A stretch of 64,000 nt of DNA, taken from NCBI RefSeq assembly GCF_000657795.2, contig NZ_JHEP02000004.1, forward strand, positions 1 through 64,000, written 5' to 3'. Under the pieces are notes generated by a model. It ran no database searches, was not told the origin of the DNA, and saw only the letters and a list, made by a program, of their open reading frames with translations. Shown piece by piece: positions 20,692 to 62,313 of this stretch. This stretch comes from Bordetella pseudohinzii (GTDB lineage Bacteria; Pseudomonadota; Gammaproteobacteria; Burkholderiales; Burkholderiaceae_B). The first letter of the stretch is position 1; the number at the start of each line of letters is the position of its first letter. Both the position numbers and the translations under genes were made by a program.

Positions 20692-29045
<8,354 letters not shown>

Positions 29046-29148: not shown

Positions 29149-29170
29149 AGCTTGGCCGCCGAAGGCGGGA

Positions 29171-29569
29171 TCAGCTCGCTTGTTTGGCGCGCTTATAGGC
29201 CGGTCCCCAAATGGGGTGGCCAATTTCGGCGGGCGTCAATTCGAAGCCGGGGTCGAGATCGAGAATGCGGGCAAAAGCATCCTGGCACAGTTGGGGATAA
29301 TTGCTCACGCAATAACTGAAGGCCTGCAGCTTGAGAGCCGGTATCTTCACGCTGGCCGGAGCGCTGGCCAGGTCATCCGACCTGGCGACATAGCGGATGA
29401 CGTCGCCATACCGGCCGGCCTGGTAGTCGGTTTGCACCCGCTCCAGCGCCTGTTGCGCGGCGGGGGTGGGCGGCAGCTCGGCGGCGGTTCTCGGCCCGGT
29501 GCAGGCGGCCAGGCCGCAAGACAGGACGAGCATGCCAAGCGGAAACAGTTGGATGTTTATACGTTTCAA
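29171..29569 (-). CDS. Putative TssQ-family T6SS-associated lipoprotein
   Basis: This 132-aa small lipoprotein has a signal peptide (MKRINIQLFPLGMLVLSCGL) and lipobox LAAC with lipidated Cys23. The residue after Cys is T, consistent with outer-membrane sorting. The helical body (QALERVQTDYQAGRYGDVIRY, then IPALKLQAFSYCVSNYPQLC) resembles a TPR-like fold. The C-terminus (DPGFELTPAEIGHPIWGPAYKRAK) resembles the family annotated TssQ; this is from memory and moderate. The start is a TTG; the next Met (residue 13) would leave too short a signal peptide. It is divergent from the kinase-like gene with 138 bp between. No other T6SS gene is in the window. Confidence 0.65.
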   Translation of the reverse strand: MKRINIQLFPLGMLVLSCGLAACTGPRTAAELPPTPAAQQALERVQTDYQAGRYGDVIRYVARSDDLASAPASVKIPALKLQAFSYCVSNYPQLCQDAFARILDLDPGFELTPAEIGHPIWGPAYKRAKQAS

Positions 29570-29707
29570 CTGGAATCTCGATCAGGGTACGAGGTAGTTT
29601 ATGCTTGGCCTCGGACTCCTGCAAAGGAGTGCGATCTGGGTGGCATAATACCCAATTGTCGACAATCTCGTGTGTGATTTCCGTGCGGAAATCTTTCAGG
29701 ACAAGTA

Positions 29708-30928
29708 GTGGCCGCGGGCAGTTTTCGCCGCGCATATTTGATTGAAATGTCTTTACCAGCCGGTCCATCAATATCGCGCAGTCCGTTTGCCGGCGCTGCC
29801 CCGTTGGCCCACAGGCCACTGAATGCCATTGCCGCCACGGCAGGCGGAGGTGTTCCCGAGGCCCGCATCAAGCGGCTGCTGGGCGAACTATTCGCGCCCC
29901 TGCAGGCTTTGCACGACAGAGGCCGTATTTGCGGCGATATCACGACTGCCTCGGTCGGCCTGGATGAAAATGGCAGGGCCCACCTGATGGCGGTCGACAC
30001 CCAGCCGCGCCAAAGCGAAGGCGCGGCGCCCACGACCGCGGCGGGCTTCGCGCCCTATGAGTTTTATCTGCAGTCGGCCCAATGGCCGCGCGGCCCCTGG
30101 AGCGATATCTATAGCCTGAGCGCCGTGGCGCATTCCCTGGTCACAGGGGACCTGCCGCCGCCGGCCATGGAGCGCATCGAGCACGACGGCTACCTGCCCC
30201 TGGCCCAACGCGGTCTCAAGCGCTATGACGCCGACTTCCTGCGGGCCATCGATGCCGGCCTGGCGCTGCGTCCGGCGGACAGGCCGCAATCGGTATCCGA
30301 TTTCGCCGACAGCCTGGCGTTCGCGCCGGCCGTGGACAACACCGAACTGGCCACCATTCCGCCCATCGAATTGCATACCCCCATGCCGCGCGCCGAGTAT
30401 GTGCCGGTGCATCCGGCAACCTCTTATACGCGCCGCATTCTGCTGGCCGGAGTGCTGCTGCTGGCCGCGGCCGGCGTGGGTGTCTACTGGTGGGAGCGCC
30501 TGTCCAGCACGGCCTCGCCGGTGATCGCCGGGTCCCAGCTGGTGCATATTGCGCAGGCTCCCGCGCCTAAGCCGCAGCCCGTCGAAACGGTCGAGCCGCC
30601 TCCTGCGCCGGCCGCCGCGCCACAACCCCCCGCCGCGCCCGCGGCGAGCGAACAGGCCGAACCGCCCACGGCCACCGCCTCGCCCGGCGAGTTGCTGCAG
30701 CCGCCTAGCGCCGCCGTGGCGCGTGTCGCCGTGGCCGTCCATATCCAGCCCTGGGGCGAGGTCTGGGTCAATGGCGTGAACCGCGGCATCTCGCCGCCGC
30801 TGCGCGAACTCAAGCTGGCGCCCGGCAAATACCGCGTGGTGGTGCGTAATGCGGATCTGCCGGCCTATCAGACGACGCTGGAGGTCAAGGCCGGCCGTCC
30901 GGCCGCGATCGGCCACACCTTTCGGTAA
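29708..30928 (+). CDS. Membrane-anchored Ser/Thr kinase-like protein (probable pseudokinase) with PEGA-like C-terminus
   Basis: The 406-aa product starts at GTG (29708) with AGGAC upstream. Residues 10-205 match a Hanks-type kinase from the hinge onward: LIEMSLPAG, LHDRGRICGDITTASV, GFAPYEFY, WSDIYSLSAVAHSLVTG and RPADRP. The glycine loop and VAIK lysine are absent, HRD is CGD (D77), the catalytic-loop Asn is S82 and DFG reads DTQ, so catalysis is unlikely. One membrane helix (243-261) follows, then a Pro/Ala-rich periplasmic linker (about 283-335) and a PEGA-like beta domain (340-406, GEVWVNGVNRGISPPL). An in-frame stop at 29675 rules out a longer N-lobe in this frame. An alternative start is the ATG at 29747. 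Confidence 0.7.
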   Translation: MAAGSFRRAYLIEMSLPAGPSISRSPFAGAAPLAHRPLNAIAATAGGGVPEARIKRLLGELFAPLQALHDRGRICGDITTASVGLDENGRAHLMAVDTQPRQSEGAAPTTAAGFAPYEFYLQSAQWPRGPWSDIYSLSAVAHSLVTGDLPPPAMERIEHDGYLPLAQRGLKRYDADFLRAIDAGLALRPADRPQSVSDFADSLAFAPAVDNTELATIPPIELHTPMPRAEYVPVHPATSYTRRILLAGVLLLAAAGVGVYWWERLSSTASPVIAGSQLVHIAQAPAPKPQPVETVEPPPAPAAAPQPPAAPAASEQAEPPTATASPGELLQPPSAAVARVAVAVHIQPWGEVWVNGVNRGISPPLRELKLAPGKYRVVVRNADLPAYQTTLEVKAGRPAAIGHTFR

Positions 30929-30933
30929 GCGGC

Positions 30934-33237
30934 TCAGGCGGGCTGGCAGGGCAGGCGCAGCATGAAGGTCGAGCCCTGGCCCGGCGTGCTGCGCACATCG
31001 GCCTGGCCGTGATGCCGTTGGGCCACGGCGCGCACAAAAGCCAGCCCCAGGCCGGCGCCGCCGGCATCGGCCTGCACCGCCGAAGCCGCGCGCGTAAAGG
31101 GCTGGAAGACTTGTTCCAGCTGGTCTGCGGCGATGCCCGGCCCCTGGTCGGCAATGCTGAGCACCCATTGCGTGCCGTCGCGCTGGATATCGCAATGGAT
31201 GCGGCTATCCCCGGGGCTGTACTTGATGGCGTTGTCCAGGAGGTTGGACAAGGCGCGCCGCAACAGGGTCTGGTCTCCCATCACGAAGGCCGGCGCCTGC
31301 GGCTCCCGCAGCTCGATGGTGATGCCGCGGGCCTGGGAAGGCGCCCAGAAATCATCGCAGACTTCGCGCAAGAGTTCGGCCAGGTCCAGCGGCACCGGAT
31401 GGATCTTCATGGATTCAGCGCGGGTCAGCTGCACGAAGCCCTCGACCAAATGCAACGTGCGCCGCGACAGCTGCGCGATGCGCTGCAGGGTCTCGGCCTG
31501 GTCCTGGTCCGCCGGATCGTGCTCGTGCATGGCCACCAGGGCCAGGATGGAATTCTGCGGCGCGCGCATGTCATGCGAAATAAAGCGCAGCGTCTCCTCG
31601 CGCTGGCGTTCGGCATGCCGGATGTCGCTGATATCGCTCAGCGTCAGGATGGTGCCGACGAATTCGCCTTCGCCTGAATGAATGGGGGCGCACTTGAAGA
31701 TCACGTCCCGCGAACCGTGCACGCGCGCCTCGACATCGGCGCTCCAGCCCGAGCGCGGCGGTTTGGCGGCGGCTTCCTGCATGGAGGCGGCAATGCGCTC
31801 GCGCGTGGCGTCCGAGGGCAGCAGGGGTGTCAGGATTTCATCCAACCGCTGTCCCGCATGCGGCGCGCGCCGCTTGAGCTGCCTGAAGAATTGCGCGGCG
31901 GCGCGATTGCGGAATTGCAGGCGTCCTTCCTGGTCGAACACCAGCGTGGCGTCGGGCAGGCCGTTCAGGCCGTCCGTCAGGAACTGGCGCAGGTTGCGCA
32001 CCAGGGCCAGCGCCCGGCGGAACTGTCCCAGCCTGTCCTCGACCGAGCGGTGGCCCAGCAGCAGCGAAGCCGGGCGCCGGTCGAGCACCGGCGCATAGTC
32101 CTTGCGCAGGCGCTTGAGTTCATCATCCATATAGCGCAACACCGCTTCCTGGCTGCGCCAGCTCCAGATCGGATAGCAAAGCGCCAGGCTGAACAGCGCG
32201 GCCGAGGGCGGAAACCAAATCTGGCCGTAGCGCAGCATCAGCGCCGCGCCGGGCAGGATGAGCACCAGCAGCACGCCATTGAGGGCCAGCGACAGCTTGG
32301 GCGAACCATGGCGCATCACCAGGCAGAGCAGCAGCACGGGCAGCGCGGTGGCCAGCGCGTTCTCCCAGGACGAGGCGGTGCGCAAGGAGCGGTCCTCGTT
32401 GGCCGCCTGTAGAAGATTGGCCAATATCTCCATGCCCGCCGTGCCGTTGGCGCGGTGCGACACCGGCGTGGGGAAGGTATCGGTCATGCCGGTCGCCCAG
32501 GCGCCGACAATGACGTATTTGTCCCGGAACCGGCTGGGCGGGACGCGGCCTTCCAGGACATCCAGGTAACGCACCATGGCATAGTGGCCCGGCGGTCCGG
32601 CGAAGGGGATCAGGGCCTCGCTGTCATCCTCGATACCGGCGGCGAAGCGCCGGGCCTGTTCGGCCTGGCCGCCGGCGCGCAGCAAAGCGAGCGAAAAATG
32701 CGTCCAGCGGTGGCCGTCGACGTTGCGCTGCCAGGCCGTATGGCGCACCACGCCGTCGGCGTCGACCGGGATGTTGATAAAGCCCATGTCGGCGGCCGCC
32801 TGGGCCAGCATGGGGATGGGGGGCTGGTAGCCCGCGGGCGCGTCCAGTTTGTCCAGGACGATGGGCAGCACCACTTTGCCATGGGCGCGCATCGCGCGCG
32901 CCAGGGCGGCGTCGGCGGCCGGGTCGGTCTGGTCGGCCTCGGAAAAAATCAGGTCCAGCCCGACCGCGCGCGCCTCGTGCAGTTTGTCGATCAAGGCCGC
33001 GTGGACCTGGCGTTTCCAGGGCCACCGGCCCAGCATGGCGATGCTGTCGTCGTCGATCGTGACCAGCACGATATTGGCCTGGGCAGGCCGGCTGATCAAT
33101 GACAGGGCGCGGTCATAAAGCGTCTGGTCGGCGCGGCCCAGGCCCGTAAAGGCGCCCAGCAGCGCGGCCAGCAAGGTCAGCAGCGCCGTAAGGAGGAAAC
33201 CCGAGCGGGGAGTGAGCGCGCGTCGATCCGCTGGCAT
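30934..33237 (-). CDS. CHASE2-domain sensor histidine kinase
   Basis: This 767-aa membrane kinase has an N-terminal helix (residues 13-33) and then an extracytoplasmic CHASE2 domain (about 40-300; DQTLYDRALSLISRPAQANI, DDDSIAMLGRWPWKR, DKYVIVGAWATG). Three closely spaced helices follow (about 290-370), then a PAS-like region (FDQEGRLQFRNRAAAQF). The HisKA domain has H555 in RFISHDMRAPQNS, and the HATPase has NLLDNAIKYSPGD, DQGPGI and GAGLGLAFVRAV. It is last in a minus-strand operon after the response regulator and the LysM-FecR gene, 11 nt after the latter. It ends 5 nt from the convergent kinase-like gene. Confidence 0.88.
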   Translation of the reverse strand: MPADRRALTPRSGFLLTALLTLLAALLGAFTGLGRADQTLYDRALSLISRPAQANIVLVTIDDDSIAMLGRWPWKRQVHAALIDKLHEARAVGLDLIFSEADQTDPAADAALARAMRAHGKVVLPIVLDKLDAPAGYQPPIPMLAQAAADMGFINIPVDADGVVRHTAWQRNVDGHRWTHFSLALLRAGGQAEQARRFAAGIEDDSEALIPFAGPPGHYAMVRYLDVLEGRVPPSRFRDKYVIVGAWATGMTDTFPTPVSHRANGTAGMEILANLLQAANEDRSLRTASSWENALATALPVLLLCLVMRHGSPKLSLALNGVLLVLILPGAALMLRYGQIWFPPSAALFSLALCYPIWSWRSQEAVLRYMDDELKRLRKDYAPVLDRRPASLLLGHRSVEDRLGQFRRALALVRNLRQFLTDGLNGLPDATLVFDQEGRLQFRNRAAAQFFRQLKRRAPHAGQRLDEILTPLLPSDATRERIAASMQEAAAKPPRSGWSADVEARVHGSRDVIFKCAPIHSGEGEFVGTILTLSDISDIRHAERQREETLRFISHDMRAPQNSILALVAMHEHDPADQDQAETLQRIAQLSRRTLHLVEGFVQLTRAESMKIHPVPLDLAELLREVCDDFWAPSQARGITIELREPQAPAFVMGDQTLLRRALSNLLDNAIKYSPGDSRIHCDIQRDGTQWVLSIADQGPGIAADQLEQVFQPFTRAASAVQADAGGAGLGLAFVRAVAQRHHGQADVRSTPGQGSTFMLRLPCQPA

Positions 33238-33248
33238 TGCGTGGCTCG

Positions 33249-34352
33249 TCAGTAGTCTTGCAAGGTGATCAGGCCTCCAGTGCCGTTGGCCACGGCCTGG
33301 CCGTCGCTGCTCAATAATGCCAGGGCGCCTTCAAACGGCTGGCGTGTCTCATAGCCCGCCAGGCCGGTCTGGTCCACGGCGCTGACGTTCACATAATAGG
33401 TGCCGGGGCCCGGAGCGGTAAAGCGGATATCCGGCGCCGTGAATCGCTGGGCCGAGACCACGTGCATGCCTTGGGCATCGCGTGAGACCTGCACGTTGTA
33501 GGCCTGCGCGCCGGGCACGGGCGCAATACGGCTGGTCCAGCTGCCGCCGTTGCGTTGCGGCGTCTCCAGCACGGGCGCGGCCAGCAGGGGCTGCACGCCA
33601 AGCAGGCTGCCGTCGCCGCTGACGCGGGCGCCCTGGCCCTGGCGCACGGTGGTCACTTGCGCCGGCGCCTGGCCGCGCGCATGGGCCTGCACCCGCACAT
33701 TGCCTTCCAGCACGGCCTGGCTGGCCCCGTCGCGGCGGGCCTCGACGCGAAAGCGCGTGCCGCGCACGCCCGTGACAGCCACGGGGGCGCGGATCTCGAA
33801 GCGGCCCACGCCCGCGCCTTCCGGCGCGACCCGGGATTCCATCGACCCTTCCTCCACCGAGACCACGGTGTCGGTGATCGGCACACGCTCGAAGCGGCGC
33901 AGGCGCTGAAGCTGCACGGTGCTGTTGGGCGGCAGGGTGATCTCGCTGTTGTCCGACAGGCGCACCGTGACGAAGCCGCCGGCGCCGGTCGACAGTACGC
34001 CGCCTTCGGGCAGCGGGCTGCCCGGGCTGGCCTGCTGCCCGTTGACGCTGGCGCTGCCCGCCACGCTGACGATCTGGGCCGCGCCCGGCACTTCGGGGAT
34101 CATCGCCAGGGGAATGCGCAGCTCCATCGCGACCGGCAGGGCCAGGGTGTCGGCGATCTTGTTCAGCTGCTGCAACGCCGGCCAATTGCTTTCTTTGCCG
34201 GTATAGGTCGTGGCCAGGCCGATCAGGGTATCGCCCGGACGCACGCGATAAATGAAGTCTTCGTTCAATGTGCCCGCAGGCTGAGCCTGGACCGCGCCAG
34301 CGGCCAGGGCAATGCTCAGCGCCAGGGACGCATACCGGATACTCCGGTTCAT
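33249..34352 (-). CDS. Secreted LysM- and FecR-domain protein
   Basis: The 367-aa product has a signal peptide (MNRSIRYASLALSIALAAGA, cleavage after VQA) and is presumably periplasmic. A LysM domain (about residues 32-85; FIYRVRPGDTLIGLATTY) suggests peptidoglycan binding. A FecR domain follows (about 110-205; GGVLSTGAGGFVTVRLSDNS, ITGVRGTRFRVEA-like core). The C-terminal part (about 265-345) looks like a fibronectin-type or Ig-like fold. The start at 34352 has AGGAG upstream; the frame is open to 34559 but has no signal there. LysM-FecR proteins often neighbour CHASE2 sensors, so it may present an envelope signal to the kinase downstream (inferred). Confidence 0.85.
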   Translation of the reverse strand: MNRSIRYASLALSIALAAGAVQAQPAGTLNEDFIYRVRPGDTLIGLATTYTGKESNWPALQQLNKIADTLALPVAMELRIPLAMIPEVPGAAQIVSVAGSASVNGQQASPGSPLPEGGVLSTGAGGFVTVRLSDNSEITLPPNSTVQLQRLRRFERVPITDTVVSVEEGSMESRVAPEGAGVGRFEIRAPVAVTGVRGTRFRVEARRDGASQAVLEGNVRVQAHARGQAPAQVTTVRQGQGARVSGDGSLLGVQPLLAAPVLETPQRNGGSWTSRIAPVPGAQAYNVQVSRDAQGMHVVSAQRFTAPDIRFTAPGPGTYYVNVSAVDQTGLAGYETRQPFEGALALLSSDGQAVANGTGGLITLQDY

Positions 34353-34402
34353 AGCGACGCTCCTGTGTGTAGATGCGCGCGCGGTGTTTCCCGCGCTTGT
34401 CA

Positions 34403-35101
34403 TTAATTGGACGGTTCGGTCACCGCTTCCAGGCGATAGCCGAGCGCGTAGGAGGAGGTCAGGCGCAGGCCGTTCTGGGGGCGCAGCTGCAGTTTCTGGC
34501 GCACATTGGACAGATGGGTATCCAGCGTGCGCGAGGTCGGTGGAATTTCCCGATTCCACACGGTCTCGGCCAGCAGGTCGCGCGACAGCAGGCGGCCGAT
34601 ATTGCGCAGGAACAGCAGCGCCAGTTCATATTCTTTGGGCGCCAGGGTGACCGGCTCACCGTGCAATTCGATGATCCGGCGCGCCGGGTCGACGTGGTAA
34701 GGGCCCACGTCAAAAGGCGGACTGTCCTGCGCGGCGGGCTGCGTGCGGCGCAATAAGGCGGAAACACGGGCCAGCAGCTCGGCCGGGCGCAGGGGTTTGA
34801 CGATGTAGTCGTCGGCGCCGGCCTGCAATCCCTGCACCAGGTCTTCTTCCTGGTCGCGGCTGGTCACGAAAATAATCGGCAGGCCCATGCCGTAGCGCGA
34901 ACGCAAATATCGAACAACCTCGTCGCCGTCCATGTCGGGCAGCTGCCAATCGACAAGAATCAAGTCAAAGGTTTCATTGCGCAGCGCCGCCAATAAATCC
35001 TGGCTCTGTTGAAAACTGCTGCACTCATACCCGGCATGCTGCAGCAATTGCTGTATTTGCCGGGCCTGGTCCAGGTCATCTTCTAATGAGGCGATTCTCA
35101 T
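34403..35101 (-). CDS. OmpR-family response regulator
   Basis: This 232-aa regulator has a complete receiver: D8-D9, phosphoacceptor D51 (LILVDWQLPDMDG), T80 and K102. A winged-helix C-terminal domain follows (VTLAPKEYELALLFLRNIGR, LDTHLSNVRQKL). It is first in the minus-strand operon with the LysM-FecR and CHASE2 kinase genes, so it is the likely phosphorylation partner of that kinase. Its target genes are unknown. The 273-bp upstream region is shared with the divergent atypical regulator. Confidence 0.87.
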   Translation of the reverse strand: MRIASLEDDLDQARQIQQLLQHAGYECSSFQQSQDLLAALRNETFDLILVDWQLPDMDGDEVVRYLRSRYGMGLPIIFVTSRDQEEDLVQGLQAGADDYIVKPLRPAELLARVSALLRRTQPAAQDSPPFDVGPYHVDPARRIIELHGEPVTLAPKEYELALLFLRNIGRLLSRDLLAETVWNREIPPTSRTLDTHLSNVRQKLQLRPQNGLRLTSSYALGYRLEAVTEPSN

Positions 35102-35374
35102 GGGCCGTGTTTCTTAAAGGTTGGGGCCAGTTATTACCGGCCTGAGAAAACCGTCGCGCAGCGACTCCTCTTACCCCTTCATCATAACCTTTGTCATATC
35201 TTGTCTACATTGCCGAAAAGCGCGATGAAATAACACTGTCAATCATTGCAAAATTGACGAAGTTTGACTCACGGCTTTGCGCAATAGAGCGTCACACTAT
35301 CTCCAATCGCATCAAGGTCTGTGTTTCGCATACCCGGGGTGCGTAACCACCTAACGGTGAGATAGGGCCTGGTC
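35102..35374. other. 273-bp divergent regulatory region between two regulator genes
   Basis: Less GC-rich than its surroundings. It must hold both divergent promoters. TTGACG (35254-35259) and TTGACT (35264-35269) resemble -35 elements, but no -10 at good spacing was found. Confidence 0.35.
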
Positions 35375-36088
35375 ATGAAGCAATTGAGCACTTTAATCAT
35401 GGTGCCGGATTCAGCCAGCCGCGCTCGGACCATTTCGGTGCTGCTGCAAGCTGGCATCTCCACAAAGGGTTGTTCCACGCCGCTGGAACTCTTCGGCATG
35501 CTTAACGAAGAGCACTACGACATTGTCGTGCTTGATGTGAGTACATTGGGCGAACTGGGTTTCGCCCTGATCGCGCGTTTGCGCGGATCCTCGGAACTGG
35601 GAGTCATCGTCAAGGGCGAGGACATGCCGGTCGAAATGCGCCTGCGCTGCCTGCAAAGCGGCGCCGACGCCGCCTTGGCCGAACCGGTCGACGACCGTGA
35701 ACTGGCCTGCGTGCTTCTGGCGCTGGCCCGCCGCCTGCCGGTCTGGCAGGACGAGCCTGTCGAGGACGTCGGCATGGAATTGATGGCCTCCGGCAAATGG
35801 GAGCTGCGCGACCAGGATTGGACCCTGGCCGCGCCCACGGGCGCCACGCTGTCGCTTTCGACCAACGAAAGGCTGATCGTGCGGGCGCTGCTGCAGGCCG
35901 AAGGCCGCGCCGTCAGCCGCGGCGCGCTGGCCGATGAACTCAGCGCCGACGGCGCCAACGCCCGCATGACGGGGGCGCGCAGCATCGACGTCGTGATCAG
36001 CCGCCTGCGCCGCAAGGCCGAATTGGCCGGCCTCATCCTGCCCATCCGCACGGTCTACGGCAGCGGCTACCTGTTCGCCCACACTTGA
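35375..36088 (+). CDS. Atypical response regulator (degenerate receiver, winged-helix output)
   Basis: The 237-aa product has an N-terminal receiver-like domain and a C-terminal Trans_reg_C winged helix (LSLSTNERLIVRALLQAEGR, SIDVVISRLRRKA, YGSGYLFAHT). The receiver keeps the aspartate at the phosphoacceptor position (D54 in IVVLDVS). It has only one of the usual two acidic residues (P11-D12), K80 instead of Thr/Ser, and E103-P104 where canonical receivers have Lys-Pro. Normal phosphorylation switching is therefore doubtful. It is divergent from the canonical regulator and has no kinase gene of its own. It could bind DNA constitutively or as a partner of the other regulator. Confidence 0.75.
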   Translation: MKQLSTLIMVPDSASRARTISVLLQAGISTKGCSTPLELFGMLNEEHYDIVVLDVSTLGELGFALIARLRGSSELGVIVKGEDMPVEMRLRCLQSGADAALAEPVDDRELACVLLALARRLPVWQDEPVEDVGMELMASGKWELRDQDWTLAAPTGATLSLSTNERLIVRALLQAEGRAVSRGALADELSADGANARMTGARSIDVVISRLRRKAELAGLILPIRTVYGSGYLFAHT

Positions 36089-36533
36089 CTCAGGGCGCGT
36101 CCCCAATAAAAGGGGACGCCCTTGCCAACGCCTACGCGCATTTTTTGCGCAGGACCTTTGACAGCGGTGGATAACTAAGTTAAGCTAAAGGGCTTACTGC
36201 TTTATGCGCGCAAAGTACAGGTGCTGCGGATTGAGCAAGACTGCCGGATGCGTCACGAGTTCAGGCAGTGTTGTCCGCAACCACCCACAGCAGGGGGCCG
36301 CCCGCCAGGCCATCGTAGATGGTTCCGGCGCAGCGATGCCTGTGTGGGTAATAGCAGTGAAACAGGCATCTCTCACACTTTGCGCGCTTGTCTGCAAGAC
36401 CCGCTCTTTTACGTCACCCACGTCAGAGGCGGTTTTGCGCAAACTGCCTCCGCCAGGCGTCTAAGCATCAGGCGTCCGGAGGACATAGTACGTAAGTACT
36501 TACCAGTGGTACGTAAAAGGGATTTCAAAGGTC
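36089..36533. other. 445-bp intergenic region upstream of rpsL (str operon leader)
   Basis: No convincing gene; short open frames here have no family likeness. A hairpin GCGTCCCC/GGGGACGC (36097-36104 with 36112-36119) after the regulator lacks a T run. A perfect -35 TTGACA (36158-36163) lies 17 bp before a weak -10 (TAAGCT, 36181-36186), which would give a leader of about 340 nt. A near DnaA box (GGTGGATAA) is at 36167-36175. A 12-bp perfect palindrome GTAAGTACTTAC (36492-36503) sits 30 nt before rpsL. Confidence 0.5.
36492..36503. repeat. 12-bp perfect palindrome before rpsL
   Basis: GTAAGTACTTAC is preceded by TAC and followed shortly by GTACGTAA, so TACGTAA occurs twice around it. It may be an operator or an mRNA structure in the str leader; the role is unknown. 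Confidence 0.4.
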
Positions 36534-36911
36534 ATGCCTACCATTAGCCAACTCGTGCGCAAGCCGCGCGAAGTCAGCATCATCAAGAGCAAGAGCCCCG
36601 CGCTGGAGAATTGCCCCCAGCGTCGCGGCGTTTGCACCCGTGTCTACACCACCACCCCCAAGAAGCCGAACTCCGCTCTGCGTAAGGTTGCCAAGGTGCG
36701 TCTGACCAACGGTTACGAAGTCATTTCGTACATCGGCGGCGAAGGCCACAACCTGCAAGAGCACTCGGTCGTCCTGGTGCGTGGCGGTCGTGTGAAGGAC
36801 TTGCCCGGTGTGCGTTATCACATCGTGCGCGGCTCCCTTGACCTGCAAGGCGTCAAGGACCGTAAGCAAGCCCGCTCGAAGTACGGTGCCAAGCGCCCGA
36901 AGAAGGCCTAA
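36534..36911 (+). CDS. rpsL: 30S ribosomal protein S12
   Basis: This 125-aa decoding-centre protein is the first gene of the str operon. The streptomycin-relevant lysines are wild type: K43 in [11 protein letters not shown] and K88 in [12 protein letters not shown]. The start [13 protein letters not shown] is canonical, although the upstream AAAGG is only a modest ribosome binding site. Confidence 0.98.
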
Positions 36912-61791: not shown

Positions 61792-61905
61792 ATGAAAGTA
61801 ATGGCATCGGTTAAGCGGATCTGCCGCAACTGCAAAGTTATCAAACGTCACGGCGTCGTGCGTGTCATCTGCACCGACCCGCGTCACAAGCAGCGTCAAG
61901 GCTAA
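61792..61905 (+). CDS. rpmJ: 50S ribosomal protein L36
   Basis: A 37-aa protein: [20 protein letters not shown] and then [17 protein letters not shown]. It is the zinc-binding form, with C11, C14, C27 and H32 as ligands. The ribosome binding site AGGAG lies 9 nt before the ATG. The infA-rpmJ-rpsM order supports the call. Confidence 0.97.
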
Positions 61906-61947
61906 CCCCGGTTAGCGGTACGCAACGGATTAAATCAAGGAACAGTC

Positions 61948-62313
61948 ATGGCCCGTATTGCTGGCATTAACATTCCGCCGCAACAGCACGCCGAGATCGG
62001 CCTGACCGCCATTTTTGGCATCGGTCGTACGCGCGCCCGCAAGATCTGCGAAGCTGCTGGTGTGCCCGTTACCAAAAAGGTCAAAGATCTGACCGACGCT
62101 GAGTTGGAACGCATCCGTGAACACCTGGGTGTGTTCACTGTCGAGGGTGACCTGCGTCGTGAAGTACAGCTCTCGATCAAGCGTTTGATCGACCTGGGAA
62201 CCTACCGCGGTATGCGTCATAAGCGCGGTCTGCCCGTGCGCGGCCAGCGCACTCGCACCAACGCCCGCACCCGCAAGGGCCCGCGTCGTGCTGCTGCGTC
62301 CCTGAAGAAATAA
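61948..62313 (+). CDS. rpsM: 30S ribosomal protein S13
   Basis: This 121-aa head protein forms the bridge with L5 and contacts P-site t[23 protein letters not shown] and the C-terminal [18 protein letters not shown] are typical. It is the first gene of the alpha operon. Confidence 0.98.

Follow-up and report, generated by a model that had tools for sequence, protein, structure and literature searches.

Why do six genes for envelope and regulatory proteins lie between rpoC and rpsL in Bordetella pseudohinzii, and do they work together? The genes were found in a 64,000-nucleotide stretch of contig NZ_JHEP02000004.1 (the window; its genome is referred to as G000). They encode a TssQ-family lipoprotein, a pseudokinase with a periplasmic tail, a CHASE2 sensor histidine kinase, a LysM-FecR periplasmic protein, a canonical response regulator and a second regulator with a pseudo-receiver. 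An earlier note made from the letters of the window (the original prediction) had proposed that all six form one envelope-to-gene pathway. Our analyses indicate that the locus is probably composed of two parts sharing the rpoC–rpsL junction: a BiofilmReg two-component module, and a pair of type VI secretion system (T6SS) origin, which would act as a scaffold without its machine. Hereafter, the canonical regulator, LysM-FecR protein and CHASE2 kinase are referred to as module 1, and TssQ and the pseudokinase as module 2; G and L numbers denote sampled genomes and loci. All six open reading frames were confirmed in the predicted order within the rpoC–rpsL interval. The gene-by-gene reading was also sound, with TssQ scoring over its family cut-off, and the kinase, the LysM-FecR protein and both regulators giving clean Pfam matches (Table 1).

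Analyses of a family sample of 121 genomes indicated that the two modules occupy the junction separately. CHASE2 was present in 74 of these genomes; of the 47 without it, seven had a junction pseudokinase, three had no rpsL match and 37 were fetched. The fetched genomes comprised 24 with rpoC and rpsL on a single stretch and 13 with no rpoC on the fetched stretch. In 19 of the 24, all lacking both CHASE2 and a junction pseudokinase, the rpoC–rpsL gap was 1.5 kb or less (measured between best tblastn segments), as expected of genes that are usually near neighbours. CHASE2 was at the junction in 53/121 genomes, 51 with it within 15 kb of rpsL, plus G031 and G092, where it adjoined rpoC. With the kinase module at the same junction in so many family genomes there was no new insertion, and describing the genes as "inserted" was therefore misleading; as far as the sample shows, module 1 is old at the rpoC–rpsL address. 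Both modules occupied the junction in 14 genomes, module 1 only in 39, module 2 only in seven and neither in 61. The recent insertion of a single six-gene island was rejected, because each module was found at the junction in genomes without the other. Other inserts of 4–13 kb holding none of the six genes were seen in 5/24 genomes (L230 in G016, L232 in G019, L243 in G054, L245 in G057 and L256 in G096), which suggests repeated uptake of DNA at this junction.

Islands with both modules were verified in 21 genomes, 14 from the family sample and seven from a genus search in which 12/15 genomes had the pseudokinase. All six gene positions were present in 17 of the 21 islands, spanning three genera, so that the co-occurrence proposed as a check in the original prediction does hold within this one set; family-wide, however, the modules separate, as the 39 and seven single-module genomes attest. 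Further points that agree with one pathway, in which the pseudokinase would modulate the CHASE2 kinase or the regulators, were the convergence of the kinase and pseudokinase genes, whose stop codons are only -20 to 51 bp apart (19 genomes measured), and a weak positive association of the modules in the family sample (Fisher p 0.029, uncorrected and ignoring phylogeny). In addition, LysM-FecR and TssQ were both missing in G068, G121 and G128, the sole pattern hinting at a link between modules. Set against these, the three genera may form one clade, and shared descent would therefore explain the co-occurrence. TssQ alone was missing in G036. Two of the 17 six-position islands carried broken genes. 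In G123 (3.7 Mb, L216), the canonical regulator had a stop at codon 64, the kinase and LysM-FecR genes were in several pieces and the pseudo-receiver regulator was matched just to residue 218 of 237, whereas the pseudokinase and TssQ genes were open. In G092, the kinase was in two pieces and the pseudokinase had a stop near its end. Together, these data left the single pathway without support; we consider it unlikely, and two modules with a shared location are the better-supported reading. On its 4.04 Mb contig, G092, which belongs to the same genus as the window genome, has its island (L036) and rpoC at around 0.02 Mb and rpsL at 3.29 Mb (C1:3293234), and a rearrangement has therefore split the junction there.

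Module 1 is the BiofilmReg two-component system, whose core operon has already been published; the original prediction's statement that no system of this composition had been described was wrong for this core. In Burkholderia contaminans, the operon consists of a response regulator, a LysM-FecR protein and a CHASE2 kinase, and insertion in the regulator gene abolished biofilm (PMC5192318, 2016). The available part of that report also lists Achromobacter and Bordetella as having three-gene versions, and notes that the kinase of B. pertussis 18323 is damaged. The three genes in the window are similarly adjacent, on one strand and in the same order, with the LysM-FecR gene in the middle and intergenic gaps of 50 and 11 bp. 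The kinases also correspond, that of the window having CHASE2, PAS_4, HisKA and HATPase_c domains (Pfam), and in the LysM-FecR protein both domains were above the Pfam cut-off. Unlike the published operon, the window has no DUF4136 fourth gene (a Burkholderia-only feature), the convergent pseudokinase gene being next beyond the kinase, and it adds the divergent pseudo-receiver regulator, with TssQ and the pseudokinase alongside. A regulator of the CreB subfamily is expected in BiofilmReg; the canonical regulator in the window scored 157.6 bits against PhoB and 156.7 against CreB, both far under the curated cut-offs. The rpoC–rpsL location is not mentioned in the available part of PMC5192318, which was the sole report of a CHASE2 operon of this type among the open-licence PubMed Central (PMC) listings searched.

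The pseudokinase of module 2 is the C-lobe of PpkA, the Ser/Thr kinase of T6SSs (solved structures 5hnv and 5x1r), minus the N-lobe. It had no Pfam kinase match, and the C-lobe was identified by profile and fold comparison. The start at ATG 29747 fits the homologues and GTG 29708 is also possible; the protein begins past the point where an N-lobe would end, and upstream of the ATG the open frame would supply at most 23 extra residues before the divergent TssQ gene. Differences from PpkA extend to the loss of the ATP-binding Lys and of both catalytic motifs (CGD replaces HRD and AVD replaces DFG), and to a genome with no T6SS sheath gene. The layout, an inner-membrane protein with a periplasmic tail, is similar to that of Acidovorax citrulli PpkA as presented in the available part of PMC12607579. 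Pfam PEGA (PF08308) scored 12.3 bits in the window (E 0.16) and 18.1 bits in G047, versus a cut-off of 20.8, and the tail model was strand-rich with a predicted local distance difference test (pLDDT) score mostly above 90. Absence of the N-lobe was common to all eight Bordetella, Achromobacter and Advenella loci with a C-lobe match (L112–L116, L122, L160 and L163), while overall 68/77 loci had at least 72 residues upstream of the C-lobe. As the PpkA copies in T6SS clusters of this lineage also have no N-lobe, PpkA can persist as a non-catalytic part. PpkA relatives outside the three genera (in L117–L191) mostly had sequence for an N-lobe.

The second member of module 2 scored 127.3 bits against NF038027 (TssQ family T6SS-associated lipoprotein), nearly twice the cut-off of 65; it differs from that family in adjoining no T6SS, in a genome without TssC. 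The lipobox, LAAC, is at residues 20–23 of the TTG-start reading, with two conserved Cys residues downstream in the protein. The model was TPR-like (pLDDT 88.6), and searches for a solved TssQ homologue gave none (best profile E 0.12, best Foldseek E 0.046), just a TPR-like arrangement. Of the 42 TssQ copies across the 121 genomes, 22 were within 40 kb of TssC, including two junction copies; a further 17 occupied the junction without TssC, and three were in other places.

Comparison of the junctions revealed what appears to be a graded series of stages of a single secretion cluster, all at this location. In G009, about 32 kb between rpsL and rpoC contained genes for the pseudokinase, TagF, TssM, TssL, TssK, TssJ, TssQ, an AAA ATPase, TssG, TssF, ImpE, TssC, TssB and TssA, along with non-T6SS genes (for a DUF3540 protein, an ABC transporter and oxidoreductases). 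In G049, of the same genus, rpsL and rpoC likewise enclosed the pseudokinase, TssQ and TssC genes. In G005 and G047, the pseudokinase and TssQ were about 7 kb apart at the junction, and in G047, the one of the two that was scanned, a VgrG gene and a DUF2169-pentapeptide gene were between them. In G077, G100 and G120 the pseudokinase adjoined TssQ. The last five genomes thus keep the pair with no sheath gene at the junction, and CHASE2 had no match in any of these seven genomes. The order and orientation rpsL, pseudokinase, TssQ, rpoC were the same in T6SS-bearing junctions and islands. The apparent series starts with a T6SS cluster, passes through pieces of a cluster to a two-gene stage, and ends with two genes where the genome has no sheath gene; what survives is PpkA minus its N-lobe, and its lipoprotein.

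The pseudokinase tree (29 of 30 rows; G117_T was dropped for a misaligned start) agreed with this series. The 13 island copies formed one clade (support 100/99), which was joined by five junction copies (97/94). The G009 copy (88/84) branched next, and a further nine T6SS copies, taken from other loci and in six cases from island genomes, fell outside. Based on these comparisons, module 2 apparently derives from a T6SS cluster formerly at the rpoC–rpsL junction. In G028 (C6:92922-95110, L077), the pseudokinase adjoined TssQ off the junction with no TssC, and the pair may there have come to exist without a T6SS independently. A match in plasmid record H1 had no annotated gene beneath it.

A whole-genome search of G000, which among T6SS core genes covered TssC alone (PF05943), found no TssC. 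In all, TssC was missing from five of the 21 island genomes (G000, G092, G113, G123 and G126), and all five keep the island TssQ. Conversely, the four islands without TssQ (G036, G068, G121 and G128) are all in genomes with TssC, and the pseudokinase was present in 21/21 islands. The ratio of non-synonymous to synonymous substitution rates (dN/dS, by Nei-Gojobori) was calculated for 13 pairs; the kinase and pseudokinase of G092 were left out, as were the kinase, LysM-FecR protein and pseudo-receiver regulator of G123, and the value for the G123 regulator, which covers only the 63 codons before its stop, is disregarded. In five close pairs, the ratios for TssQ and the pseudokinase, respectively, were 0.13 and 0.18 (G000–G122), 0.12 and 0.15 (G000–G126, both without TssC), 0.09 and 0.14 (G122–G126), 0.13 and 0.18 (G000–G123), and 0.17 and 0.10 (G126–G123); in the other pairs they ranged from 0.06 to 0.27. 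The pair therefore looks to be maintained by purifying selection even though G000 is without the sheath gene.

These data bear on two further explanations. One is that the island pair works in trans for a T6SS whose genes are at another place in the genome. In 8/14 family-sample islands (G003, G015, G053, G075, G081, G098, G103 and G118), the island TssQ was the only TssQ found and TssC was elsewhere in the genome, which agrees with such a role. Retention of TssQ in all five TssC-less genomes, its loss in four that have TssC, and the constraint on the pair between TssC-less genomes argue the opposite, and we regard service in trans as improbable. The other explanation is that the pair is an idle leftover with no function. 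This is very improbable given the low ratios for both genes in the five pairs listed above (0.09–0.18) and the pseudokinase being in every island, notwithstanding the loss of TssQ from 4/21 islands and the stop near the end of the G092 pseudokinase.

Several results weigh against a T6SS-derived pair that is independent of its machine and of module 1. The absence of a T6SS from G000 is judged by one gene, TssC. For most pairs synonymous divergence (dS) approached or exceeded 1, and the ratios include constraint predating T6SS loss in each lineage. The branch that places the T6SS copy of G009 with the junction copies (88/84) was not starred. The TssQ tree, short and mostly unresolved, went against an island plus junction clade (approximately unbiased test, p-AU 0.023), with the island clade alone at p-AU 0.133. 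The PEGA score of the pseudokinase tail was sub-threshold, and the co-occurrence of the modules in the family sample was, as given above, somewhat greater than chance.

The second regulator is a lineage-specific companion of module 1: orthologues with E below 1e-70 were found in 14/121 genomes, and a weaker one in G031, every one adjoining module 1. The original prediction had described this regulator as degenerate, which was accurate for the conserved Lys of the receiver, lost in 15/15 aligned orthologues, and not for the phospho-acceptor Asp, which is retained in 13/15, including that of the window. In the window protein, Gly is at the Thr position, Glu is at the Lys position and a single acidic residue is left, so it lacks the full set of a phosphorylatable receiver. 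We believe that it probably acts without phosphorylation. At four T6SS-side loci (L054 in G053, L057 in G015, L058 in G081 and L059 in G103), an OmpR-type regulator 31–35% identical to it adjoined the T6SS pseudokinase on the opposite strand; these stretches had no TssQ match, and the single TssQ of each genome was the island copy.

The promoter between the two regulators contained a TTGAC-N5-TTGAC box that was exact in 16/20 genomes (counted by eye in the alignment of 20 gaps). The conserved box had one site in the whole window, allowing up to three mismatches, and the strict pattern, TTGACNNANNTTGACT, occurred once per genome, at this promoter, in 6/6 genomes searched; the reversed control had one match in the six genomes combined. 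No TTGAC box was present in the TssQ–pseudokinase promoter of the window, nor did one appear when 16 gaps of this kind were aligned, a further point against one pathway. Co-regulation of both modules by the box was rejected, the strict box being nowhere else in the six genomes (looser boxes were sought in the window only).

Homologies, gene order, shared synteny, N-lobe loss, constraint and separate loss were computed here; for the interactions and outputs, we infer the following scheme. In module 1, the LysM-FecR protein would hold peptidoglycan and condition the CHASE2 sensor, and the kinase would phosphorylate the canonical regulator. Both regulators, canonical and pseudo-receiver, may act on the box between them, so that there would be at least autoregulation, and the output of the module would be an envelope or biofilm state. 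What remains from the T6SS in module 2 would be PpkA minus its N-lobe (a cytoplasmic C-lobe, one membrane helix and a periplasmic PEGA-like domain) and TssQ, which together could form a scaffold between the inner and outer membranes that needs no catalysis and works without a secretion machine. The closest experimental parallel is A. citrulli, where, in the available part of PMC12607579, outer-membrane TssW binds both PpkA and catalytically inactive PpkA and sets the position of PpkA foci; as in module 2, an outer-membrane partner is combined with an inner-membrane PpkA, and contact and placement there are independent of PpkA catalysis. The A. citrulli pair differs in serving an active T6SS, and TssQ is likened to TssW by layout, not by sequence. 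We also speculate, as a quite unlikely extension, that the pair escaped its secretion apparatus and was recruited as a sensor that spans the envelope and reports to the CHASE2 system; TssQ would bind the PEGA-like tail, and the beheaded C-lobe would dock either on the kinase or on the second regulator, the latter acting without phosphorylation.

These findings set a published biofilm operon apart from neighbours of other origin. What is new here is that a pseudokinase and a lipoprotein of T6SS origin have been kept as a pair in the absence of their machine, and this makes directly testable the question raised by the available part of the A. citrulli work (PMC12607579), namely what PpkA contributes beyond phosphorylation and whether any of it lies outside secretion. 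In the open-licence PMC listings we found no description of a T6SS origin and retention of the pair, no Bordetella T6SS remnant at the rpoC–rpsL locus, no paper on a T6SS with rpoC/rpsL in Achromobacter, and no T6SS pseudokinase of this sort or PEGA-bearing T6SS kinase; by titles and abstract starts, the name TssQ had other uses or referred to T6SSs of Bacteroidota or the gut.

Table 1. Features at the rpoC–rpsL junction of the window, with positions counted from its first nucleotide.
Feature	Position	Strand	Remarks
rpoC (flank)	24804..29045	+	
TssQ-family lipoprotein, predicted all-alpha TPR-like fold	29171..29569	-	NF038027
Pseudokinase: PpkA-type C-lobe, membrane helix, periplasmic PEGA-like domain	29747..30928	+	
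Pseudokinase, kinase C-lobe part, residues 21-193	29807..30325	+	CGD for HRD, DFG gone, no N-lobe
Pseudokinase, predicted membrane helix, residues 227-253	30425..30505	+	helix in model; membrane role suggested by residues
Pseudokinase, PEGA-like domain, residues 327-391	30725..30919	+	seven strands in model; sub-threshold Pfam PEGA
CHASE2-PAS-HisKA-HATPase_c sensor histidine kinase	30934..33237	-	CHASE2 E 1.5e-53, HATPase_c E 6.9e-29, HisKA E 1.7e-6
LysM-FecR periplasmic protein	33249..34352	-	FecR E 2e-17, LysM E 2.1e-6
Canonical OmpR/PhoB-type response regulator	34403..35101	-	receiver and Trans_reg_C; all receiver key residues there
Divergent two-regulator promoter	35102-35374		
Conserved box CAAANTTGACNNANNTTGACT in two-regulator promoter	35249..35269	+	alignment of 20 gaps
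Pseudo-receiver OmpR-type regulator	35375..36088	+	receiver and Trans_reg_C domains
rpsL (flank)	36534..36911	+	Ribosom_S12_S23 E 3.1e-42

The GC content of window positions 30000-34000 was 0.68–0.70, versus about 0.60–0.64 in the flanking rpo and ribosomal genes, a difference that codon use in the flanks could explain. Further downstream, an alpha operon ribosome binding site (RF00140, 49.9 bits) was identified at window positions 61871-61980.

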